IMG/VR virus record: IMGVR_UViG_3300040806_001924
Span: 1 to 27,222 of that record
DNA: 27,222 nucleotides
Strand: one strand, 5' to 3'
Source of the DNA: a virus
Translations under genes and position numbers: made by a program
The notes under the pieces: model-generated
Databases searched by the model: none
Told to the model about the DNA's origin: nothing
The model's input: only the letters and a program-made list of their open reading frames with translations
Shown: positions 3,399 through 27,016 of the stretch, in pieces
Numbering within the stretch: position 1 is the first letter of the stretch
Layout of the letters: each line of letters begins with the position of its first letter

Positions 3399-3611
3399 TT
3401 ATCCTCTAATTAGTTGTTCTCCACCGTTCCCTGATTCGTTAATATTATCTGATAAAACATCTTTTACAATAACTTTATTAATATCAACCCACATCCCGCC
3501 AATATTGACAGAATTATTAGCAATTTGCATAACAACACCCTCTGTAAACAATGTTGAGTCATCGCGTGTTGCATATACTACCCTCTTATTTAAACAATTT
3601 TTAATATCCAT
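3399..3611 (-). CDS. Small hypothetical protein (70 aa), first gene of early-type block
   Basis: Begins MDIKNCLNKRVVYATRDDST and contains GMWVDINKVIVKDV; this reads like a small beta-barrel or SH3-like fold, but I do not recognise a family. An upstream in-frame ATG at 3629 exists, but it overlaps the -10 box. The ATG at 3611 sits six bases after a perfect extended -10 (TGC TATAAT), which favours this start and implies a transcript with little or no leader. It is followed closely by the 51-aa gene and the kinase. Confidence 0.6.
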   Translation of the reverse strand: MDIKNCLNKRVVYATRDDSTLFTEGVVMQIANNSVNIGGMWVDINKVIVKDVLSDNINESGNGGEQLIRG

Positions 3612-3697: not shown

Positions 3698-4165
3698 TTA
3701 GAGTGATCTACCTTGATTCTGAGAAGTGAATTCTTTACGAACAATAGTTGATACCTTATTAGCAAATGCTTCGGCTTCGGAATCGTCCATTAGACCCAGT
3801 TTAACAACATCTGTAACTAAACTTGATAATACACTATCAACTTTACTTAGGTGTCTTTTCAATACACGTTGTTGTTTACCTTGATCATATTTTTTAGAAA
3901 AACCTTGGCCTTTCCCACTTTTAAAGCCTTCAACACCAGCTTTAACAGCGTCTTTAGCTGATCCAACACGGTCTTTTACACGATCAAACACACCTTCTTC
4001 AACTGTATCCTCTTCATCTTCTTCATCCCCTTCTTCGGATTCTTCTACAGTCTCTTCATCCTTTTCCTCATCTTCATCCTTTTCATCTTTTTTTTCAAAG
4101 TTGTAGGATTCTGTATAAATCTGGAAAATATCTTCGAAATCGTTATTATTTGGTGTTTTATTCAT
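3698..4165 (-). CDS. Acidic late protein, possible prohead core/scaffold component
   Basis: 155 aa with two parts. Residues ~25-58 are almost entirely Asp/Glu/Lys (for example EEGDEEDEEDTVEE), a low-complexity acidic tract. Residues ~60-155 are basic to neutral and helical (GVFDRVKDRVGSAKDAVKAG; LSKVDSVLSSLVTDVVKLGL). No family is recognised with confidence. A late-promoter motif 21 bases upstream and a terminator just downstream make it a single-gene late unit near portal and gp15. An acidic, helical late protein suits a head core or internal protein such as T4 gp67/gp68, but this is inference from composition and timing only. Confidence 0.55.
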   Translation of the reverse strand: MNKTPNNNDFEDIFQIYTESYNFEKKDEKDEDEEKDEETVEESEEGDEEDEEDTVEEGVFDRVKDRVGSAKDAVKAGVEGFKSGKGQGFSKKYDQGKQQRVLKRHLSKVDSVLSSLVTDVVKLGLMDDSEAEAFANKVSTIVRKEFTSQNQGRSL

Positions 4166-5809: not shown

Positions 5810-5838
5810 ATATTAACACGTTGTTGGCAAAATGTCAA
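5810..5838 (-). promoter_or_regulatory. Sigma70-type promoter for phosphoesterase gene
   Basis: Minus strand: perfect -35 TTGACA (5833-5838), 17-base spacer ending in TGT (extended -10 TG), -10 TAATAT (5810-5815), 15 bases before the ATG at 5794. The -35 lies inside the last codons of the homing endonuclease gene. Confidence 0.6.
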
Positions 5839-5842
5839 CAAC
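5820..5842. other. Hairpin overlapping the endonuclease stop codon
   Basis: Perfect 7-bp arms GTTGTTG (5820-5826) and CAACAAC (5836-5842) around a nine-base loop. It contains the stop codon of the homing endonuclease gene and overlaps the promoter spacer. It lacks a minus-strand T-tract, so it may be an operator or mRNA 3'-end structure rather than a terminator. Confidence 0.4.
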
Positions 5843-7349
5843 TTATATTTTTTATCATCGATATATTACCACAGTCCCATATATGATAATATAATTCATC
5901 TTCGATAATATCATCACAAGTTAATAATTCATACCTTTTTGATTTATTTCTAAAATACCAACATTTTGGGTCAGTTTTATATTCTATCCTAAACCCTTGA
6001 TTCAAAAATAACATACTATAATTCCATCTTCTGTCGATAGATTTATATATTTTATCACACATTAAAATATGTGATAATTTCACCCAATCATTATCATTAA
6101 AATCAATCAAATAATCATCTATATTATTTGATATAAGTAAACCATCTTTATGGTTTTCAAAATTTATTTCAAATACACTATCAGTTGTAACGCACTGTAT
6201 AGTAAATATATTTTCGGTTTGGTTAATTTTTTCAAACCCAATTATTTTAGATTTTTTAACCAACCCCAATAAATATTTTATTTTTTGTAAAACATGATCA
6301 CAATTATTTTGAAATTCACTTTCAAAAATATGAATTAAGTTAACTCTTTTTTTCTCACATTCAATGGTTTTATTTAAATGATACAATTTATCTTTTCCCA
6401 TCTCTTCACTATGCCAATAAATTCCATTCACTTCAATTGCTAAATTTTTATCGGGTATATAAAAATCTAATTCTAAACCATCTAATATATTTCTATCGTT
6501 CTCTATAAATTTAATATCATTATTTATTAAAAATTGTTTAATTTCTTCATGATATTTTGAAAATTGAACCCCACATTTTCTACAACCATGGCCATTTAAA
6601 TGACAATTTGCTTTTTGTTTAAACAAACCATGTTCTGGACATATGATCTTAACCTTACTATAACTATCAACGTATTCGACCAATGAATAATCATAAAAAT
6701 TATTATGTTTTATATTAGCAAGAGTTATAAACTTATCATTATCATATTTGCGTTTTTCTCCTTTTAGAATTTCTGCACATTTTCTGCACCCTCTACCTCC
6801 CAAATGACCTGTAATTATTTGTTTAAATACACCGTGTTCTTTACATATAATTTTTATTTTTTCTTGAGAATTATTAAATTTAACCAATGAATAATCATAT
6901 TTATTACCATGTATATCTTTAAATTTAAGTAACAATTCTTCTTTGGTATATTTTTTATTATTTGCACAAGATGGACACCCATGTGCCTTTTTATTTATAT
7001 GACTAGCTGCCTCCTGTTCAAAAACACCGTGTTTTTTACAAATGATTTTTATTTTTTCTTTGCCCCCATTATATTCAACCAATGAATAGTCATATTTATC
7101 ACCATGTAATAACTTCGCCCTACCAATGAACTCAAAATTAGTATGTTTGGAGTTATCGGATATACAGTTCGGACACCCCATCATACTATGTATACCACTT
7201 GGAACTTTCAAAAATTCGCCATGTGTATCACATATTATTTTAACTTTAGTTTTATTGTTTATATAAACAATTTTAGATAGATCGCAATTATCAAATTCTC
7301 TATTTGATCTAAATTCTTTAATAATTTGATCTGTGGTCTTACGTTTCAT
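5835..7349 (-). CDS. Homing endonuclease, DUF723-type zinc repeats plus Vsr-like (EDxHD) nuclease
   Basis: 504 aa. The N-terminal half has one short and three full copies of a ~55-residue module of the form HGDKYDYSLVEY...KIKIICKKHGVFEQ...GCPSCA, each ending in a Cys pair (zinc-binding, DUF723-like), at about residues 27-65, 78-128, 137-190 and 208-262. A Vsr-like PD-(D/E)XK catalytic domain follows: LELDFYIPDKNLAIEVNGIY then WHSE at ~299-325, and a NLIHIFESEF strand. This is the EDxHD homing endonuclease architecture (I-Bth0305I type). The C-terminal part (DRRWNYSMLFLNQGF, IWDCGNI) matches the end of the second endonuclease at 24636-26102, but the region between is divergent. The ATG overlaps the stop of the upstream gene (TAATG), so it is a free-standing intergenic insertion translated by coupling. 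Confidence 0.88.
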   Translation of the reverse strand: MKRKTTDQIIKEFRSNREFDNCDLSKIVYINNKTKVKIICDTHGEFLKVPSGIHSMMGCPNCISDNSKHTNFEFIGRAKLLHGDKYDYSLVEYNGGKEKIKIICKKHGVFEQEAASHINKKAHGCPSCANNKKYTKEELLLKFKDIHGNKYDYSLVKFNNSQEKIKIICKEHGVFKQIITGHLGGRGCRKCAEILKGEKRKYDNDKFITLANIKHNNFYDYSLVEYVDSYSKVKIICPEHGLFKQKANCHLNGHGCRKCGVQFSKYHEEIKQFLINNDIKFIENDRNILDGLELDFYIPDKNLAIEVNGIYWHSEEMGKDKLYHLNKTIECEKKRVNLIHIFESEFQNNCDHVLQKIKYLLGLVKKSKIIGFEKINQTENIFTIQCVTTDSVFEINFENHKDGLLISNNIDDYLIDFNDNDWVKLSHILMCDKIYKSIDRRWNYSMLFLNQGFRIEYKTDPKCWYFRNKSKRYELLTCDDIIEDELYYHIWDCGNISMIKNISC

Positions 7350-8151: not shown

Positions 8152-9924
8152 TTATTTTTCAATCCTCGAAATTCCGTTTTGTTTAACAACCTTGATAATA
8201 TCACCCGTAGCGTGTTGCTGTAACTCTTTTCTATGGGTGATAAGGTATATTGATTTACCTTCATTGTTACATTTATCTAATAATATATCAACTACAAAGT
8301 TTACCCCATCCGTATCCAAGCTACCATCAACCAACTCGTCAAAACAAAGCATATTTGTATCAAATTTGCCTTGAATTTTTTGTAAATCCATGAATGCAAA
8401 CATGATTGCAATGTCAATATTACGCCTTTCACCACTTGAAAAATTAAAATATGAGCATTCATGTCTCTTATCATTGATAATTTTTTCTTCAAAGAATTCA
8501 TCAAAGGTTAATACACAGTTAGCATTGAGCTTATCTAGATAAAAGTTGATTCGTTTATTGAAAATATCTAATAGTTTATTGACGATATATGATTTTACAC
8601 CATTCTCCCCACAAATAAACTTAATTTGATCAAGGATTTCAACCTGTTTTGTTGTTTCTTCGATTTCTACAGAACAATCAGATAGTTCTTTACCAACTTT
8701 GGTAATAATATCCTCTAAATCATTAAATTCTTCTTTGATTTCTTTAGCATTTGTTAATAAACTCTTAATATTTGTATCACAATCTTGGATACGGTTCTTA
8801 ATGATTTCGTTTTCATTGATTTCTTTTTGGATTTTAGTTATTTCGGTATCACAATCTCGTATTTTGGTTTCGATAACAGTTAAAACACCTCTAATTTCTT
8901 TAATGTTTTGTTCTCTTCGTTCCTTTTTATCGGTAAGATCAACAATATCAGCCTGTAATTCATCAACATGTTTTTGAACATGTTCTTTATCGTCTTCTGA
9001 CATTTCTCGATTACATGTTGGACAAATACCAGATGTGAACAGATTATCTATTTGTTTTTTCTTATTATTAATCTCAAAAACAATTGCTGCTAATTTTTCT
9101 TTTACGTTATCTAACTTTTCTTCTTTAATAGCTAATATTTTGTCATTTAAACCCTGTTTTTTATCTTTAATACCAATATATTGGTCTTTATCAATATCAA
9201 TAATCTTAGATTCAAGCTCTTTTTTCTGTTTTTGTTTCTCTTTAATCTGCTCTTTGATCTTTTCGATCTTCTGGAGTTTGTTTTCTTCAAATTTTTCGGA
9301 TTGTTCCTTATAAATCTCAAGATTTTTTTCTTTTTCAGTCTTTTTAGATTCTAATGCGGTTAAATTCTTCAACGATTCATTATAATCCTTGCGAGCTTCT
9401 TTAAGAATCTCAGAAAAAATGTTCATATCAAAGATACCTTCAATGAATTTTCTCTTTTCAACCTTCGATTGAGCCATAAATGGAACAGTTTGGTTAATCC
9501 CCATGATAACACAGTTCTTAATAACATCCTCAGATACCCCTATAACCTTCTCTATATCCTCTTGTGTATTGTTTATACTGTCTCTGGTAACATCTTTACC
9601 ATCTACATGAAACTCAAGGCTTGAGGGCTTTAATTTACGAACAATCTTGTATTCTTTTTTACCTTTTGAGAATTCTAAAACGATTTCAGTTCCTTTTTTG
9701 GTCTTTTTATTAACAACATCTGATTTATTTAAACCACGAATTGTTTTACCAAACATCGCAAAGTAAATACTCTCAACAATTGTAGATTTTCCCGAACCAT
9801 TGCTACGAGCTTTATCTTTATTCTCACCAAGAATAATATTTAAACCGTCATTTATATTCAATTCAACAGGGTCTTTACCTATTGAAAGAAAATTTTGAAC
9901 TTTTACTTTTTTAAAATTAATCAT
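8152..9924 (-). CDS. 46: gp46-like recombination endonuclease subunit (Rad50/SbcC family ATPase)
   Basis: 590 aa (T4 gp46 is 560). Domain order is clear: N-terminal ABC half with Walker A RSNGSGKSTIVES at ~40-52; a long coiled coil on both sides of a zinc hook CPTCNREM at ~303-310; then the C-terminal ABC half with signature FNFSSGERRN, Walker B MLCFDELVDGSLD and the H-loop ITHR. With gp47 it forms the Mre11-Rad50-type complex that resects DNA ends for recombination-dependent replication and degrades host DNA. In T4 the two genes are close; here the gp47 gene lies 5 kb upstream in the same operon, separated by ThyX and the glycan cassette. The start overlaps the upstream glycosyltransferase by eight bases and an AGG lies about seven bases before it. 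Confidence 0.95.
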   Translation of the reverse strand: MINFKKVKVQNFLSIGKDPVELNINDGLNIILGENKDKARSNGSGKSTIVESIYFAMFGKTIRGLNKSDVVNKKTKKGTEIVLEFSKGKKEYKIVRKLKPSSLEFHVDGKDVTRDSINNTQEDIEKVIGVSEDVIKNCVIMGINQTVPFMAQSKVEKRKFIEGIFDMNIFSEILKEARKDYNESLKNLTALESKKTEKEKNLEIYKEQSEKFEENKLQKIEKIKEQIKEKQKQKKELESKIIDIDKDQYIGIKDKKQGLNDKILAIKEEKLDNVKEKLAAIVFEINNKKKQIDNLFTSGICPTCNREMSEDDKEHVQKHVDELQADIVDLTDKKERREQNIKEIRGVLTVIETKIRDCDTEITKIQKEINENEIIKNRIQDCDTNIKSLLTNAKEIKEEFNDLEDIITKVGKELSDCSVEIEETTKQVEILDQIKFICGENGVKSYIVNKLLDIFNKRINFYLDKLNANCVLTFDEFFEEKIINDKRHECSYFNFSSGERRNIDIAIMFAFMDLQKIQGKFDTNMLCFDELVDGSLDTDGVNFVVDILLDKCNNEGKSIYLITHRKELQQHATGDIIKVVKQNGISRIEK

Positions 9925-15003: not shown

Positions 15004-16055
15004 GATTTTTTACTGTAATATTCTTTAATTCGTTCTATCGTGTCTTCTTTATGTTTAATCTCACCCATCTTCTCAATAAATTCATTGATAGATGATTCAA
15101 TGTTTATGTCGCCTATATTATCATCTAATTCGATAGAGTCAAGTTCTTTTTTAATCGTAATATCATCAACAATCAAATTCACAGGGTTTTTTGAGTTAAG
15201 TTTGATCACCAATTTCTCAAGAGCAGCTTCTTTTACCTCCGTATCAACCTGTAATTTGCAATAATTATTCGAAACATCATCAAGATTTAAATCTTTTAAT
15301 TTAGATACCTTAATATATTTAAATTTTGGATAATCATTGTTATTTTTTACAAATTCACATTCACCTGTTGTAGTATCAAGGATGTGGAACCCATTTTCAT
15401 TGTCAACATCGTTAAAATCATGTTGGAATGGGCTACCAACGTAAGTTATAGACCCATTTTTATATTGTTTACTCTGATACTTGTGGAAGTGACCAGTATA
15501 AACATCTGCACCCGATTTAACCAACGATGATGAGTCTACACCTTTGCTACAGATGGTGTAATTGTTCATTTTAAAGTTTTTAATCTCAAAATGACCAAAC
15601 ACATAATCAGATTTCTCTAATTTTTCATCTTCACACCCCCAAGGGACAACCCCAATTGTTTTACCCCCCGAAGATTTGATTGTTTCTAGTTTATCATAAA
15701 CCGTAACGTTCTCCCACCCTTTAAACATCTGTAAAGAATGAATTTCTGAGTTATCTTTAAAATAACAATCATGATTACCAGTTAAAATATGAACATTTAT
15801 ATTTTTAGGGAACATATTCATAAGTTCAGATGAAACATCGAGTGTCATTACACTAATTTCATCCCTATAATGATGCCAATCACCTAAAATAAACACATGG
15901 TTTACCTTTCGTTTAATACATTCACCTATAAAATATTTAATCCACTTTTTTGAAGTTTCATAAAATTCTTCAGAGTTTTTATTTACACCAATATGTAAAT
16001 CACCTAATAGTGCTATTTTATTACCAACAGTTTTCATCTTTAAATTCATTTTCAT
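15000..16055 (-). CDS. 47: gp47-like recombination endonuclease subunit (Mre11/SbcD family)
   Basis: 351 aa (T4 gp47 is 339). Metallophosphoesterase motifs appear in the Mre11 order: LLGDLHIG at ~15-22, FILGDWHHYRDE at ~54-65, ILTGNHDCYF at ~93-102, FGHFE near 153 and TGHFHKYQSKQ near 189. The last ~100 residues are charged and probably contact gp46. It is the nuclease subunit of the gp46/47 end-resection complex. The start is uncertain: ATGs at 16055, 16049 and 16037 all overlap the gp55 gene, and 16037 (MKTVGNKIALLGDLH) would give the most family-like N-terminus. The best distinction from the other phosphoesterase (4280-5794) is the absence of an HTH region and the operon with gp55 and UvsW. 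Confidence 0.92.
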   Translation of the reverse strand: MKMNLKMKTVGNKIALLGDLHIGVNKNSEEFYETSKKWIKYFIGECIKRKVNHVFILGDWHHYRDEISVMTLDVSSELMNMFPKNINVHILTGNHDCYFKDNSEIHSLQMFKGWENVTVYDKLETIKSSGGKTIGVVPWGCEDEKLEKSDYVFGHFEIKNFKMNNYTICSKGVDSSSLVKSGADVYTGHFHKYQSKQYKNGSITYVGSPFQHDFNDVDNENGFHILDTTTGECEFVKNNNDYPKFKYIKVSKLKDLNLDDVSNNYCKLQVDTEVKEAALEKLVIKLNSKNPVNLIVDDITIKKELDSIELDDNIGDINIESSINEFIEKMGEIKHKEDTIERIKEYYSKKS

Positions 16056-16602
16056 CTTGATGGGCTATCCCATATTCATTTTCATAATCATCAAATATCT
16101 TTTCCCTGTAATTATTCAAGTCATTTTCAATCTTCTTCTCTTTATTTATCCTACCTATAAATGCATTACTAGCTGTTCTAGTGAAATATGAATGAATATT
16201 ATTTTGAGTTACTAACTTTTCTATTTTATCACCATATTCATCTAATTTAAATTCACCATCTTTATCAACTTCATATATTATATTACCATTACAATCCAAC
16301 TCAACCTCACCTAACTTATCATCAGGAATAACTTTGCAGTTTTTATCAAATACTGATTTTGTTATCCTCCACATCGCTTCACTATACATTTCGGCCCCCC
16401 AAGGGTTATCTTCCTTGAAATAATTTATAAAATTGGGCATATGGGATACACCATCAACAATTCGCCTAATATATATTCCTAATTGCTCTGTAAATACATC
16501 ATCATCATAATATTTTTTAACCTCAGTAACGAGGTCTTCATTTGCGACATAATATCTCCCTTGTTTGCGTCCTCTAGTTTCTTTTTTATTTTGTTTTTTC
16601 AC
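16021..16602 (-). CDS. 55: gp55-like sigma factor for late transcription
   Basis: 193 aa (T4 gp55 is 185). gp55 is a minimal sigma70-family factor that, with gp33 and the gp45 clamp, directs host RNA polymerase to TATAAATA late promoters. Matches seen by eye to T4 gp55: YYVANEDLVTEVKKYY (T4 YVNNKELLQAIIDW); then IYIRRIVDGVSHMPNFINY; AEMYSEAMWRI; and the best block IHSYFTRTASNAFIGRINKE (T4 [20 protein letters not shown]). A ~45-residue acidic segment (DCNGNIIYEVDKDGEFKLDE) is inserted compared with T4. The start codon is GTG, with AAGGAG at 16613-16618. It lies in the order UvsW-55-47 and overlaps both neighbours. The TATAAATA boxes in the window support its function. Confidence 0.82.
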   Translation of the reverse strand: MKKQNKKETRGRKQGRYYVANEDLVTEVKKYYDDDVFTEQLGIYIRRIVDGVSHMPNFINYFKEDNPWGAEMYSEAMWRITKSVFDKNCKVIPDDKLGEVELDCNGNIIYEVDKDGEFKLDEYGDKIEKLVTQNNIHSYFTRTASNAFIGRINKEKKIENDLNNYREKIFDDYENEYGIAHQDENEFKDENCW

Positions 16603-22813: not shown

Positions 22814-22865
22814 AGAAAAAATTAAATGTTATGAAGATTTAACAATGAGGATATCAGATGTATAG
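22803..22865 (+). CDS. Possible 20-codon leader peptide overlapping polymerase start
   Basis: A short frame reading MTDKEKIKCYEDLTMRISDV starts inside the end of the glycosyltransferase gene and stops eight bases inside the polymerase gene (ATGTATAG). It fills the 44-base gap exactly. It could couple translation of the two genes; it could also be chance. Confidence 0.25.
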   Translation: MTDKEKIKCYEDLTMRISDV

Positions 22866-24582
22866 AGGAATAACATACGACTATAATAAATCAAACATCA
22901 AATTGTTCACATGGAACAAGGATGGTGATAGAATTACTAGAGACTTTCATTATAAACCATATTTTTATACAGAAACTGCTAATAAAACTGGCTTGAAGTC
23001 AATTTTTGATGGTAATCTCAAGAAACATGAGTTTGATAATGAGTTTGATCGCAGAAAGTCGATTAAAACATCTGGTAATGACCGAATTTATGGTAATCTA
23101 CCCGTAGAGCAACAGTTTTTGATTGATGCCTTTGGTGGGGTGTGTAAAAAAGATGGATTTTCACAATTTCCGATATCATTTTTCTATATTGATATTGAGG
23201 TTTATTCACCAGATGAATTTCCCGATCAATGGGATGCAAAACACCCAATTAATGTTGTAACAATCTATAATTCGTTGAAGAATCACTTTAGAGTGTTCTG
23301 TTTAGATAGACCCTTTGATCCAAATGGTTTAAGCCAAGATAATAAAGAGAGATATAAAAAAATAACTGATGTATCGTCGGTTAAGATGACAACTCATTCT
23401 AGTGAGAAAGAGTTATTGAATTCTTTTATTAATTATTGGATAAGAGACTACCCAGATATTATTACAGGTTGGAATTTACCCTTCGATATACCTTATTTGA
23501 TTAATCGTATCGAAAAAAAGATGTCAAAGAAGGATACCCTAAGACTTTCACCGATTAGAAAGGTTAGAGAAATTGAAAGGCAACAGAAAATGGGTGCTCA
23601 ATATTCTCAAGCCGTTAGGGATTATCTTATAGATGGGGTAACAACACTTGATTATCATGATGTTTACATGAAATTCAATATGAAACCAATCCCTAATAGA
23701 AAATTGGATACGATTTTGGGTATTGAGTTGGGTATTGGTAAAGTTCAATATGAATCGTCTAATTTGGCAAAATTGTCAGAAGATGATTGGGATTTATTTG
23801 TATTTTATAATATAGAAGACGTAAACGGACTTAAATTATTAGAAGAGAAGCTTAAGTTCCTTCAAACGTGTCGAACAATTTCATATATGGGGTTAGTTCC
23901 AATGAAAAAATCATTAGATACGTTACCTATTATCAATGGATACTCTGCGGTTAATGCTCTAGAAGAGGGGAAGATTATTCCAACCTTTGAAAAGAACGAT
24001 AATTGGAGAAAATTTGATGGTGCGTATGTTAAAGAGCCAGTCCCTGGGATTTATAATGATGTTGTATCATTCGATTTAAATTCTCTATATCCAATGACTA
24101 TTATTACCCTCAATATGTCGCCAGAAACTAAGTTTGGTCGAGTGAGGTTTGTTGGTAAAGACGCTATTGTAGAGGATAATGTTGGTAAAGAGACAAGAAT
24201 GACTAAAGAAAACTTCGATAAGATGTTAGAAAAAACAAATCTAGCTATCAGTAAATCAAATGTTCTTTTTACACAAAATAAAAAGGGGATTTTCCCGAAA
24301 TTAGTTGAAGAGGTGTATTCTAAACGTCTTGAGGCTAAGGCGAAACTTAAAAAACTCAGACAAGAAGATGAAAAGAAGAATAAAGATGAGATTGAAAGAT
24401 TAACTGCATATCAAAATGCTTTGAAAGTGGTCATCAATAGCTTATATGGATACTGCGGAAATCGATATGCTCAAATGTCAGATATCGATATAGCAGAATC
24501 AGTAACCCTTACCTGTCAAGAGGTTATCAAAGAGTCATCAAATATTTTGGATAATATTGTTAATGATATTTTGAAAAAATAA
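22858..24582 (+). CDS. 43A: DNA polymerase, family B, N-terminal part (split gp43)
   Basis: 574 aa holding the N-terminal domain, the 3'-5' exonuclease and the first part of the palm and fingers. Exo I is FFYIDIEVYSP near 102, Exo II ITGWNLPFDIPYL near 200, Exo III YNIEDVNGL near 319. Polymerase motif A is SFDLNSLYPMTI near 405; motif B is NALKVVINSLYGYCGN near 525. Translation ends at TAA after NIVNDILKK, before motif C, which is found in the gene at 26105. Together the two parts give 877 residues, close to T4 gp43 (898), so no segment appears lost. A GAGG lies eight bases before the ATG. The two parts must associate to make an active enzyme. Confidence 0.93.
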   Translation: MYRGITYDYNKSNIKLFTWNKDGDRITRDFHYKPYFYTETANKTGLKSIFDGNLKKHEFDNEFDRRKSIKTSGNDRIYGNLPVEQQFLIDAFGGVCKKDGFSQFPISFFYIDIEVYSPDEFPDQWDAKHPINVVTIYNSLKNHFRVFCLDRPFDPNGLSQDNKERYKKITDVSSVKMTTHSSEKELLNSFINYWIRDYPDIITGWNLPFDIPYLINRIEKKMSKKDTLRLSPIRKVREIERQQKMGAQYSQAVRDYLIDGVTTLDYHDVYMKFNMKPIPNRKLDTILGIELGIGKVQYESSNLAKLSEDDWDLFVFYNIEDVNGLKLLEEKLKFLQTCRTISYMGLVPMKKSLDTLPIINGYSAVNALEEGKIIPTFEKNDNWRKFDGAYVKEPVPGIYNDVVSFDLNSLYPMTIITLNMSPETKFGRVRFVGKDAIVEDNVGKETRMTKENFDKMLEKTNLAISKSNVLFTQNKKGIFPKLVEEVYSKRLEAKAKLKKLRQEDEKKNKDEIERLTAYQNALKVVINSLYGYCGNRYAQMSDIDIAESVTLTCQEVIKESSNILDNIVNDILKK

Positions 24583-24590
24583 GCTGAATT

Positions 24591-24636
24591 TTATAAATAA
24601 TTAAAAGTATCTGGATAACTAGGGAACTATTTATAA
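24591..24636 (+). promoter_or_regulatory. Hairpin sequestering the endonuclease start codon
   Basis: Perfect 9-bp arms TTATAAATA (24591-24599) and TATTTATAA (24628-24636) around a 28-base loop. The right arm runs into the A of the endonuclease ATG, and AGGGA in the loop is the only SD-like element. The left arm contains the late promoter at 24592-24599. A read-through early mRNA would contain the whole hairpin; a late transcript would begin inside the loop and lack the left arm. Confidence 0.6.
24592..24599 (+). promoter_or_regulatory. Putative late promoter for homing endonuclease
   Basis: Exact TATAAATA, 36 bases before the endonuclease ATG, in the 53-base gap after the polymerase N-terminal gene. 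The expected start point is near 24606, giving a leader of about 30 bases that contains AGGGA. Confidence 0.55.
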
Positions 24637-26102
24637 TGAATCGGGAAGAAACTATAGAAAAAATAAAAAATAAATACGGTGATCGTTTTTTATATGATGA
24701 TGTTGAAGATAAAAAATATAATTATACTACAAAAATAAAATTGGTATGTAAAGAACATGGTATATTTGAAAAACCATTAAGGAGTTTAATATATAGAAAT
24801 CAAAATTGTAAAAAGTGTTTAGGTTGGGTATTTGATACCGAAAGTTTTATAAAAAAGGCAAGAGAAGTTCACGGTGATAAATATGACTATTCTTTATCAG
24901 AATATGTTAATACAAAACATCCTATAAAAATAATTTGCCCAGTTCATGGTGTTTATGAACATATACCGAATAAACATGTGTCGGGTAGAATATGTCCCCA
25001 ATGTGCAATGCGTAAAAAGGGGAAAAAACGAGAATTACATGAAGATGATGTTAAAATCCAATTTAAAGAAGTTCATGGTGACAAATATGATTACTCTCTA
25101 GTTGATTATAAAGGGACACATGAAAAGGTTAAAATAATTTGCCCCGAACATGGTATATTTGAACAAATTCCTCTAAATCATAAACGTGGACAAAATTGCC
25201 CAATATGTGCAAAAGGTGAATCACAATATGAAATTTTTGTCGAAAGTTTTTTTACAAAAAATAACATTAAATATAAACGGAATATCAGAAAAACAATATA
25301 TCCATTGGAATTAGATTTTTATTTACCCGAATATAATGTGGCAATAGAGGTTGATGGTATATATTGGCATGGAGAAAAAAAAGGTAAGGATAAAAATTAT
25401 CACCTTAATAAAACAAATTTATGTAAGGATAAAAATATAAAACTTCTTCATATAACAGATTATGAATTAAAATTTAAAAAACGAATCGTTGAATCCAAAC
25501 TTAAATCAATTTTAAATATTTCAAAAAGAAAAATTCATGGTAGAAAATGTGAAGTTAGAGAAATTGATACTAAATTAAAATCTAAATTCTTAAACAAATA
25601 TCATTTACAAGGTAATGATAAAGCTAGTGTGAAACTTGGTTTATTTTATAAAGATAAATTAGTTAGTGTAATGACATTTTGTAAACGTAGAATAGCTATG
25701 GGTAAGAAATCATCAGAAGAGGGTGAATATGAATTATCAAGATATTGTGGTAATTTCAATTTCTATGTTATTGGTGGTGCATCAAAGTTACTTAAATATT
25801 TTGAACGAAATTATACCCCATCTAAAATTGTTACTTATGCAGATAAAAGGTGGTCAATGGGTGATTTATATTTCAAGTTAGGGTTTACACATACACATGA
25901 TTCTAAACCCAATTATTGGTATTTTGATTCTCATTACATCCACAATGAAAAAATATATCATCGTTTTAATTTTAGAAAATCCGAATTATCTAAAAAACTA
26001 GATAAATTCGATCCTAATAAAACTGAATGGCAAAACATGAAAGATAATATGTTTGACAGATTTTGGGACTGTGGTAATATGGTTTTTGAAAAAACATATT
26101 AA
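24636..26102 (+). CDS. Homing endonuclease interrupting DNA polymerase, DUF723/EDxHD type
   Basis: 488 aa. One short and two full zinc modules: KIKLVCKEHGIFEK...CKKC at ~33-61, then HGDKYDYSLSEY...GRICPQCA at ~78-124 and HGDKYDYSLVDY...GQNCPICA at ~144-191. The Vsr-like catalytic domain has LELDFYLPEYNVAIEVDGIY at ~226-245, followed by WHGE and LLHITDYELKF. A C-terminal domain (~300-488) contains KYHLQGNDKASVKLGLFYKD, YELSRYCGNFNFYVIGGASK and DKRWSMGDLYFKLGF. It shares ancestry with the gene at 5835-7349, but its C-terminal domain is better conserved. Homing enzymes cut alleles lacking the insertion and spread by repair. It stops two bases before the polymerase C-terminal ATG, so coupling is possible. 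Confidence 0.9.
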   Translation: MNREETIEKIKNKYGDRFLYDDVEDKKYNYTTKIKLVCKEHGIFEKPLRSLIYRNQNCKKCLGWVFDTESFIKKAREVHGDKYDYSLSEYVNTKHPIKIICPVHGVYEHIPNKHVSGRICPQCAMRKKGKKRELHEDDVKIQFKEVHGDKYDYSLVDYKGTHEKVKIICPEHGIFEQIPLNHKRGQNCPICAKGESQYEIFVESFFTKNNIKYKRNIRKTIYPLELDFYLPEYNVAIEVDGIYWHGEKKGKDKNYHLNKTNLCKDKNIKLLHITDYELKFKKRIVESKLKSILNISKRKIHGRKCEVREIDTKLKSKFLNKYHLQGNDKASVKLGLFYKDKLVSVMTFCKRRIAMGKKSSEEGEYELSRYCGNFNFYVIGGASKLLKYFERNYTPSKIVTYADKRWSMGDLYFKLGFTHTHDSKPNYWYFDSHYIHNEKIYHRFNFRKSELSKKLDKFDPNKTEWQNMKDNMFDRFWDCGNMVFEKTY

Positions 26103-26104
26103 AC

Positions 26105-27016
26105 ATGAATACAAATACACAATTAGAAGGTAATCAAGACCATACCGTTTATAATGACACGGATTCGGTTTACATTACAATAGAAGACATAATCAAGAAA
26201 TATAACATTGATTTCTTCAATGAAGATAGATCAAAAGTCAATCCAAAGGTTATTAAACTCTGTGGGAAGATTGAAGATAAACTTAATCAGTCAATTAAAG
26301 CTTGGGGGGAGAAAGAATTAAATTCAAAAGACTGTAGATTTGAATTTAAAATGGAAGCTATTGCAGATAAAGCATTTTTCATTGCTAAAAAGAATTATGT
26401 TGTTCATGTGATGAATGATGAGGGTATAGATGTTACAAATGAAGATAAGCGTTGGAAATACAAAGGAATTAAACTTGTATCGGCTTCAATGGCAGAAGAA
26501 ACCAAACCACTTGTTGAACAGGTTTTAAGAAATGTTGTTATGAACAACAAAAAATCAGAGTCTGATAAGATTTATATGAAGGCTTATGAAGACTTTGAGA
26601 ATCTAGATTATAATTCAATCGCAATCATCAAATCTCTTAATAAATTAGATGAATATGTATCAAAATGCGATGGGTGGAATGTAGCACCACGTATGCAAGC
26701 GCATTATCGTGGGGCTTATTATTATAATATGCTTTTAGATGATATTGGTATTTCAAATAAGTATGAAAAAATCAGACAGGGTGATAAAGTTAAGTTTGTT
26801 TATCTAAAAAGTAACAATAAATATGAGATAAATGTCATTTCATATGTCGATACCTACCCAACAGAGTTTGAAACCTTATTTGAGATTGATAAAGAGCTTA
26901 TGTTTGAGAAATGCGTTAAGGATGTTGTTAATCAGTTTTATAAAGCATTGGATTGGAGTTTATATTCACCGAACTATCAACCAGTTGTTGATATTGAAGA
27001 AATGTTTTTTGAATAA
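26105..27016 (+). CDS. 43B: DNA polymerase, family B, C-terminal part (split gp43)
   Basis: 303 aa beginning MNTNTQLEGNQDHTVYNDTD. Motif C, YNDTDSVYI, lies at residues ~16-24 and supplies the second catalytic Asp pair; Asn replaces the usual Gly before DTDS. A KKNYVVHV segment near 98 and KYKGIKLVSASMAEETKP near 119 correspond to the late palm and start of the thumb (T4 KKRYALNV, LKIMGMETQQSSTPK). The last ~150 residues form the thumb. It continues exactly where the N-terminal part (ending 24582) stops, without visible gap or duplication. The first ~12 residues may be new sequence created by the split. Needs the partner protein to act. Confidence 0.92.
   Translation: MNTNTQLEGNQDHTVYNDTDSVYITIEDIIKKYNIDFFNEDRSKVNPKVIKLCGKIEDKLNQSIKAWGEKELNSKDCRFEFKMEAIADKAFFIAKKNYVVHVMNDEGIDVTNEDKRWKYKGIKLVSASMAEETKPLVEQVLRNVVMNNKKSESDKIYMKAYEDFENLDYNSIAIIKSLNKLDEYVSKCDGWNVAPRMQAHYRGAYYYNMLLDDIGISNKYEKIRQGDKVKFVYLKSNNKYEINVISYVDTYPTEFETLFEIDKELMFEKCVKDVVNQFYKALDWSLYSPNYQPVVDIEEMFFE

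Follow-up and report, generated by a model that had tools for sequence, protein, structure and literature searches.

A late promoter and a predicted read-through hairpin at the start of an EDxHD homing endonuclease gene that splits a T4-type phage DNA polymerase gene

The window examined here (a whole IMG/VR virus record of 27,222 bases, probably a genome fragment) carries an EDxHD homing endonuclease gene that, judged from the sequence, interrupts the DNA polymerase gene of the phage, leaving it as two parts, 43A and 43B (Table 1). In the explanation that we favour as a whole (probability about 0.5), a late promoter directly behind the 43A stop would start an RNA at about 24605, so that the endonuclease would be mainly a late product; in read-through RNA from 43A the promoter sequence would pair with the segment just 5' of the start codon and reduce endonuclease translation, and late RNA, lacking the left arm of the hairpin, would have an open start. 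The mechanism is not new, since a hairpin combined with a late promoter is established for I-TevI and similar arrangements exist in others; new here are the nuclease family and the translation context, and the window endonuclease is a plausible further case.

Table 1. Positions of the features discussed, in window coordinates.
Feature	Positions	Strand	Basis
gp55-like late sigma factor gene	16021..16602	-	phrog_234 late sigma transcription factor, E 1.6e-10
43A, N-terminal part of T4-type family B DNA polymerase	22858..24582	+	phrog_262, E 4e-126, residues 15-567 of 856
Left hairpin arm TTATAAATA (overlaps late promoter)	24591..24599	+	direct sequence check
Late promoter TATAAATAATTAAAA, predicted RNA start ~24605	24592..24606	+	exact match to clade consensus
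Small inner stem AGU-UCUGG / CUAGG-ACU, in long and short RNA	24606..24628	+	partition function; -4.1 to -4.4 kcal/mol in RNA lacking the left arm
Right hairpin arm TATTTATAA	24628..24636	+	pairs with left arm in predicted fold
Free-standing EDxHD (Vsr-like) homing endonuclease, 488 aa	24636..26102	+	phrog_559/3339
43B, C-terminal part of DNA polymerase	26105..27016	+	phrog_262, residues 568-841

The T4-type genes of the window comprise a gp55-like late sigma factor, a UvsY-like protein, a tail sheath stabilizer and the split DNA polymerase. 43A (stop codon TAA, 24580-24582) and 43B match adjoining parts of a single polymerase profile, and 43B is 65% identical to the corresponding portion of intact polymerases. 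The polymerase is a single intact 868-aa ORF in two relatives that are 75-77% identical (L009 and L010), and in a third (L011) it is uninterrupted up to the contig limit. The 1.5-kb insert separating 43A from 43B consists of a single gene, flanked within the insert by 53 nt on its 5' side and 2 nt on its 3' side, 43B starting 2 nt 3' of the endonuclease stop. A search for a group I intron core around the endonuclease gene gave nothing at the Rfam gathering threshold and, with E relaxed to 5, a single irrelevant match, and a group I intron or structured RNA at the insertion was rejected, there being no credible match. A gene fractured by a split intein was likewise rejected: 43A and 43B align with the polymerase profile almost to their ends, without an intein segment. 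As neither an intron nor an intein was found, we class the gene as a free-standing homing endonuclease. Among further polymerase loci, 0 of 76 were split by an endonuclease; among 44 earlier loci two were split (L258, described below, and L266), and L232 looks frameshifted. In L266 (1056-5188) the polymerase is broken at DTDS, apparently by a split intein whose two halves enclose an endonuclease gene.

The insert encodes a Vsr-like EDxHD nuclease domain and is an EDxHD homing endonuclease gene; its ATG at 24636 is the first in-frame ATG past the preceding stop. Zinc-finger-like repeats, the nuclease domain (residues ~195-300) and a C-terminal Mom-like domain make up the protein. The family profile matched the catalytic domain of I-Bth0305I (3r3p) with E 3e-7, and an AlphaFold model (pLDDT 85.6) gave I-Bth0305I in Foldseek at TMt 0.79; the solved entry is a mobile intron protein, whereas the window gene is stand-alone and carries the additional C-terminal domain. 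This match, together with the intact polymerase genes of L009 and L010, bears out the EDxHD endonuclease of the first-pass annotation and supports its insertion in the polymerase gene. The top Foldseek match of the C-terminal domain (window 25540-26102) is phage Mu Mom (E 3.8e-7), a relative of the endonuclease in L012 matches the Mom-like phrog_1384, and the fusion of a nuclease to a possible DNA-modification domain is kept across 16 aligned relatives. A second, related endonuclease gene (phrog_559) lies at window 5835-7349 on the minus strand, its start abutting the stop of the preceding gene and without a late promoter directly upstream.

The late promoter has strong support, as had been claimed. 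The window holds 3 copies of the 15-mer TATAAATAATTAAAA, and three related contigs hold 8, 5 and 8 (24 in total; ~0 expected under an order-2 model); the copies sit mostly directly 5' of gene starts. By itself the octamer TATAAATA shows no enrichment in the window (11 vs 8.0 expected). The gp55-like protein is the likely reader of this promoter. Bacteroidota housekeeping promoters were rejected as candidates, being found at chance level. In T4 late promoters the first T of the octamer lies at -13 (PMC2988020); with this geometry the octamer at 24592-24599, inside the left arm, places the predicted +1 at 24605, and the left arm would therefore be left out of late RNA. A late-type promoter was found at the corresponding place in none of the relatives' intact polymerase genes, and the promoter accordingly belongs to the insertion. 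Comparison with related phages, proposed earlier as a check, thus gave an intact polymerase and an absent promoter in the relatives, but no orthologue of the insertion was found. Judged from this promoter match, it is very probable that the endonuclease is expressed late, from a promoter of its own.

The two arms, TTATAAATA and TATTTATAA, are perfectly complementary over 9 bp, all of them A-T. The description of this repeat in the first-pass annotation is confirmed: the -10 box lies inside the left arm and within the 15-nt consensus match, and the right arm ends on the first base of the ATG. Tests of the repeat against shuffled sequence disagreed, because the helix is all A-T. A perfect match of at least 9 bp between promoter and shuffled leader was rare (P = 0.008), whereas the predicted structure of read-through RNA over the start region (-9.6 kcal/mol) had a z-score of -1.24, with 25 of 200 shuffles equally good, and the arm duplex energy was unexceptional (P = 0.33). 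RNA folding, suggested earlier as a check, thus paired the arms as predicted, but at an energy within the range of shuffled sequence. The window holds 37 perfect 9-bp inverted-repeat seeds with loops of 3-40, so that 9-bp repeats as such are common there. Among 84 late-promoter leaders the endonuclease was top for complementarity of promoter to leader, tied with an overlapping divergent promoter pair, and over the 84 late genes generally there was no enrichment of promoter-leader hairpins. No terminator was called at the endonuclease leader, where a T run is absent.

We examined how the loss of the left arm would change access to the start region. In read-through RNA, opening positions -16 to +4 was calculated to cost 7.2-7.7 kcal/mol, or 5.8-6.7 when more upstream sequence was included; in late RNA beginning at the predicted +1 the cost was ~4.0 kcal/mol. 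Loss of the left arm thus cuts the cost by ~3-4 kcal/mol, and by 3.1-3.6 at 20 and 12 C. This difference ranks tenth among 140 genes in four contigs, and three of the nine genes with larger values have opposed or paired late promoters. Bases 2 and 3 of the start codon are partly or mostly unpaired in the predicted structure, and a ribosome terminating on 43A at 24582 would sit over some of the left arm; both points count against the hairpin. We infer a translational repression of modest size; whether the hairpin represses translation from read-through RNA at all is about an even call. The 43B start region is itself fairly open (4.2 kcal/mol), and 43B therefore need not depend on late RNA; it is possible, as was proposed earlier, that a late transcript reaches 43B and alters the 43A:43B ratio.

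The T4-style picture of a hairpin over the ribosome binding site needs correction here. Genes of this clade (window, G001, G002 and G004) gave no Shine-Dalgarno signal consistently above shuffles, and their start regions favour A at -3 and -6. With Shine-Dalgarno sequences not in use in the clade, what the hairpin would hide is the start region. A Shine-Dalgarno-like AGGG is only partly within the small inner stem, and that stem is predicted for read-through and late RNA alike. In Flavobacterium johnsoniae, initiation hinges on A at -3 and start-region structure (PMC6847099), and the A at -3 without a Shine-Dalgarno signal in the clade is the same pattern; a hairpin over the start codon could accordingly have an effect here. 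This suggests a Bacteroidota host; a search of genome contigs for relatives that might identify the host found none.

A less elaborate explanation is that the late promoter alone times the endonuclease and that the arms match simply as a consequence of the leader being A-T-rich, without translational effect. We hold this to be a serious competitor, at somewhat under even odds. The fold and duplex energies inside the shuffled range and the abundance of 9-bp seeds in the window are what it would lead one to expect. Most late promoters of the same type have no hairpin, and in L012 another EDxHD gene (5977) is preceded, 9 nt from its start, by a late promoter with the hairpin absent. It accounts poorly for the length of the match and its position exactly on the start codon, and for a strong analogous hairpin in L258.

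L258 (part of the 51.7-kb record IMGVR_UViG_3300035698_017634) has a distant T4-type polymerase split by a different gene, phrog_5104, which we read from its sequence as HNH-type and unrelated to the EDxHD family. At 3459-3521 the endonuclease start region is covered by a hairpin of 14-16 bp, formed by pairing of the 43A 3' end with the segment preceding the endonuclease start, and a phage-specific late promoter occupies its loop. The promoter, GATAAATATTTAAAA, occurs in three copies in the record, the other two upstream of genes. The hairpin had a fold z-score of -2.45 and a duplex P of 0.0003, and opening the start region was calculated to cost 14.3 kcal/mol with the hairpin and 2.5 without it, a difference of 11.8 vs at most 5.7 in 64 other genes. 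This record uses Shine-Dalgarno sequences, and the GGAG of the endonuclease is at the edge of the right arm. A search for relatives of the HNH-type gene, sought for covariation, returned only itself. L258 is a stronger case than the window and, being independent, gives the best support for a switch there.

Several known endonuclease genes invite comparison. In the td intron of T4, early RNA is kept from being translated into I-TevI by a hairpin within which the I-TevI late promoter lies (PMC2988022), and I-TevII, I-TevIII, segB and the free-standing mobE have similar arrangements (PMC2988022; PMC3014915). The window matches the I-TevI geometry, with the late promoter inside the hairpin, whereas I-TevI is a GIY-YIG enzyme, intron-encoded and with its hairpin over a Shine-Dalgarno sequence, and the window has no intron signal and lies in a clade without Shine-Dalgarno use. 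The claim that the same switch has evolved here is supported for geometry and for the predicted gain in accessibility, but not by the hairpin energy, which is not exceptional. mobE of Aeromonas phage Aeh1 splits nrdA, and its hairpin is reported to sequester the ribosome binding site (PMC2988022; PMC3014915). Like mobE, the window gene is a free-standing endonuclease splitting an early replication gene, with a late promoter just 5'; it differs in being EDxHD instead of HNH, in its target (polymerase gene instead of nrdA), and in having a predicted, A-T-only hairpin where that of mobE was experimentally tested. The window thus shares with the I-TevI and mobE kind a late promoter immediately 5' of the endonuclease gene, but not sequestration of a Shine-Dalgarno sequence; its structure may act via the start codon region instead. 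In Aeromonas phage 25, seg43 splits gene 43 between 43A and 43B in a variant of this arrangement and likewise has a hairpin close to its start (PMC2988022), but seg43 is segD-like (GIY-YIG) and its hairpin lies upstream of the ribosome binding site, which is left uncovered.

We put forward tentatively, as somewhat less than probable, that unrelated nuclease families splitting T4-like polymerase genes have independently evolved timing by a late promoter inside a hairpin, including, in a clade without Shine-Dalgarno use, through start-codon accessibility alone. If so, the switch that times T4 homing endonucleases would be a convergent answer and not a feature of a single nuclease lineage, the shared problem being to keep a selfish nuclease quiet within an early replication gene. 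L258 offers a strong second case, and the window would extend the switch to translation without Shine-Dalgarno sequences.

The right arm could instead be a DNA operator: as in the autorepression of I-TevI, the endonuclease would bind a target copy close to where its gene begins and so repress itself, with the RNA hairpin incidental. At the endonuclease start, TTTATAATGAATCGG is similar to TTTATAATGACACGG, which lies in 43B, where the target probably is, and the tile 26081-26240 was best among 330 window tiles against the 5' region; however, the similarity between leader and 43B reached only P 0.04-0.12 against shuffles and the target site is putative, and we consider an operator improbable. 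Duplication of the target site as the origin of the leader was rejected on the same values. Such a duplication is clear in L012, where a gp21-like gene start is duplicated on either side of a related EDxHD gene (957-1075 and 2561-2680; score 150 vs 68 for the best shuffle); upstream of that gene is an apparent C-terminal remnant of another endonuclease. In L013, which has the closest relative of the endonuclease, a 16-bp perfect inverted repeat (3928-3990) lies directly 5' of the start. Very improbable is that the repeat represents opposed late promoters, the right arm reading TATAAATA on the minus strand and starting antisense RNA into 43A: overlapping opposed late promoters do occur in relatives (e.g., G001 9376-9387 and G004 9806-9838), but here the minus-strand site continues GTTCCCTAG instead of ATTAAAA and no minus-strand gene follows.

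Two further features of the late promoters were seen. Many of them (window 18766 and, on the minus strand, 2478; also in G001, G002 and G004) read TATAAATAATTAAAATG; the start codon then follows the octamer at 6 nt, and this predicts leaderless late mRNAs. A tandem triplet of late promoters, with a spacing of 24 bases, lies on the minus strand of G001 at 2471, 2495 and 2519.
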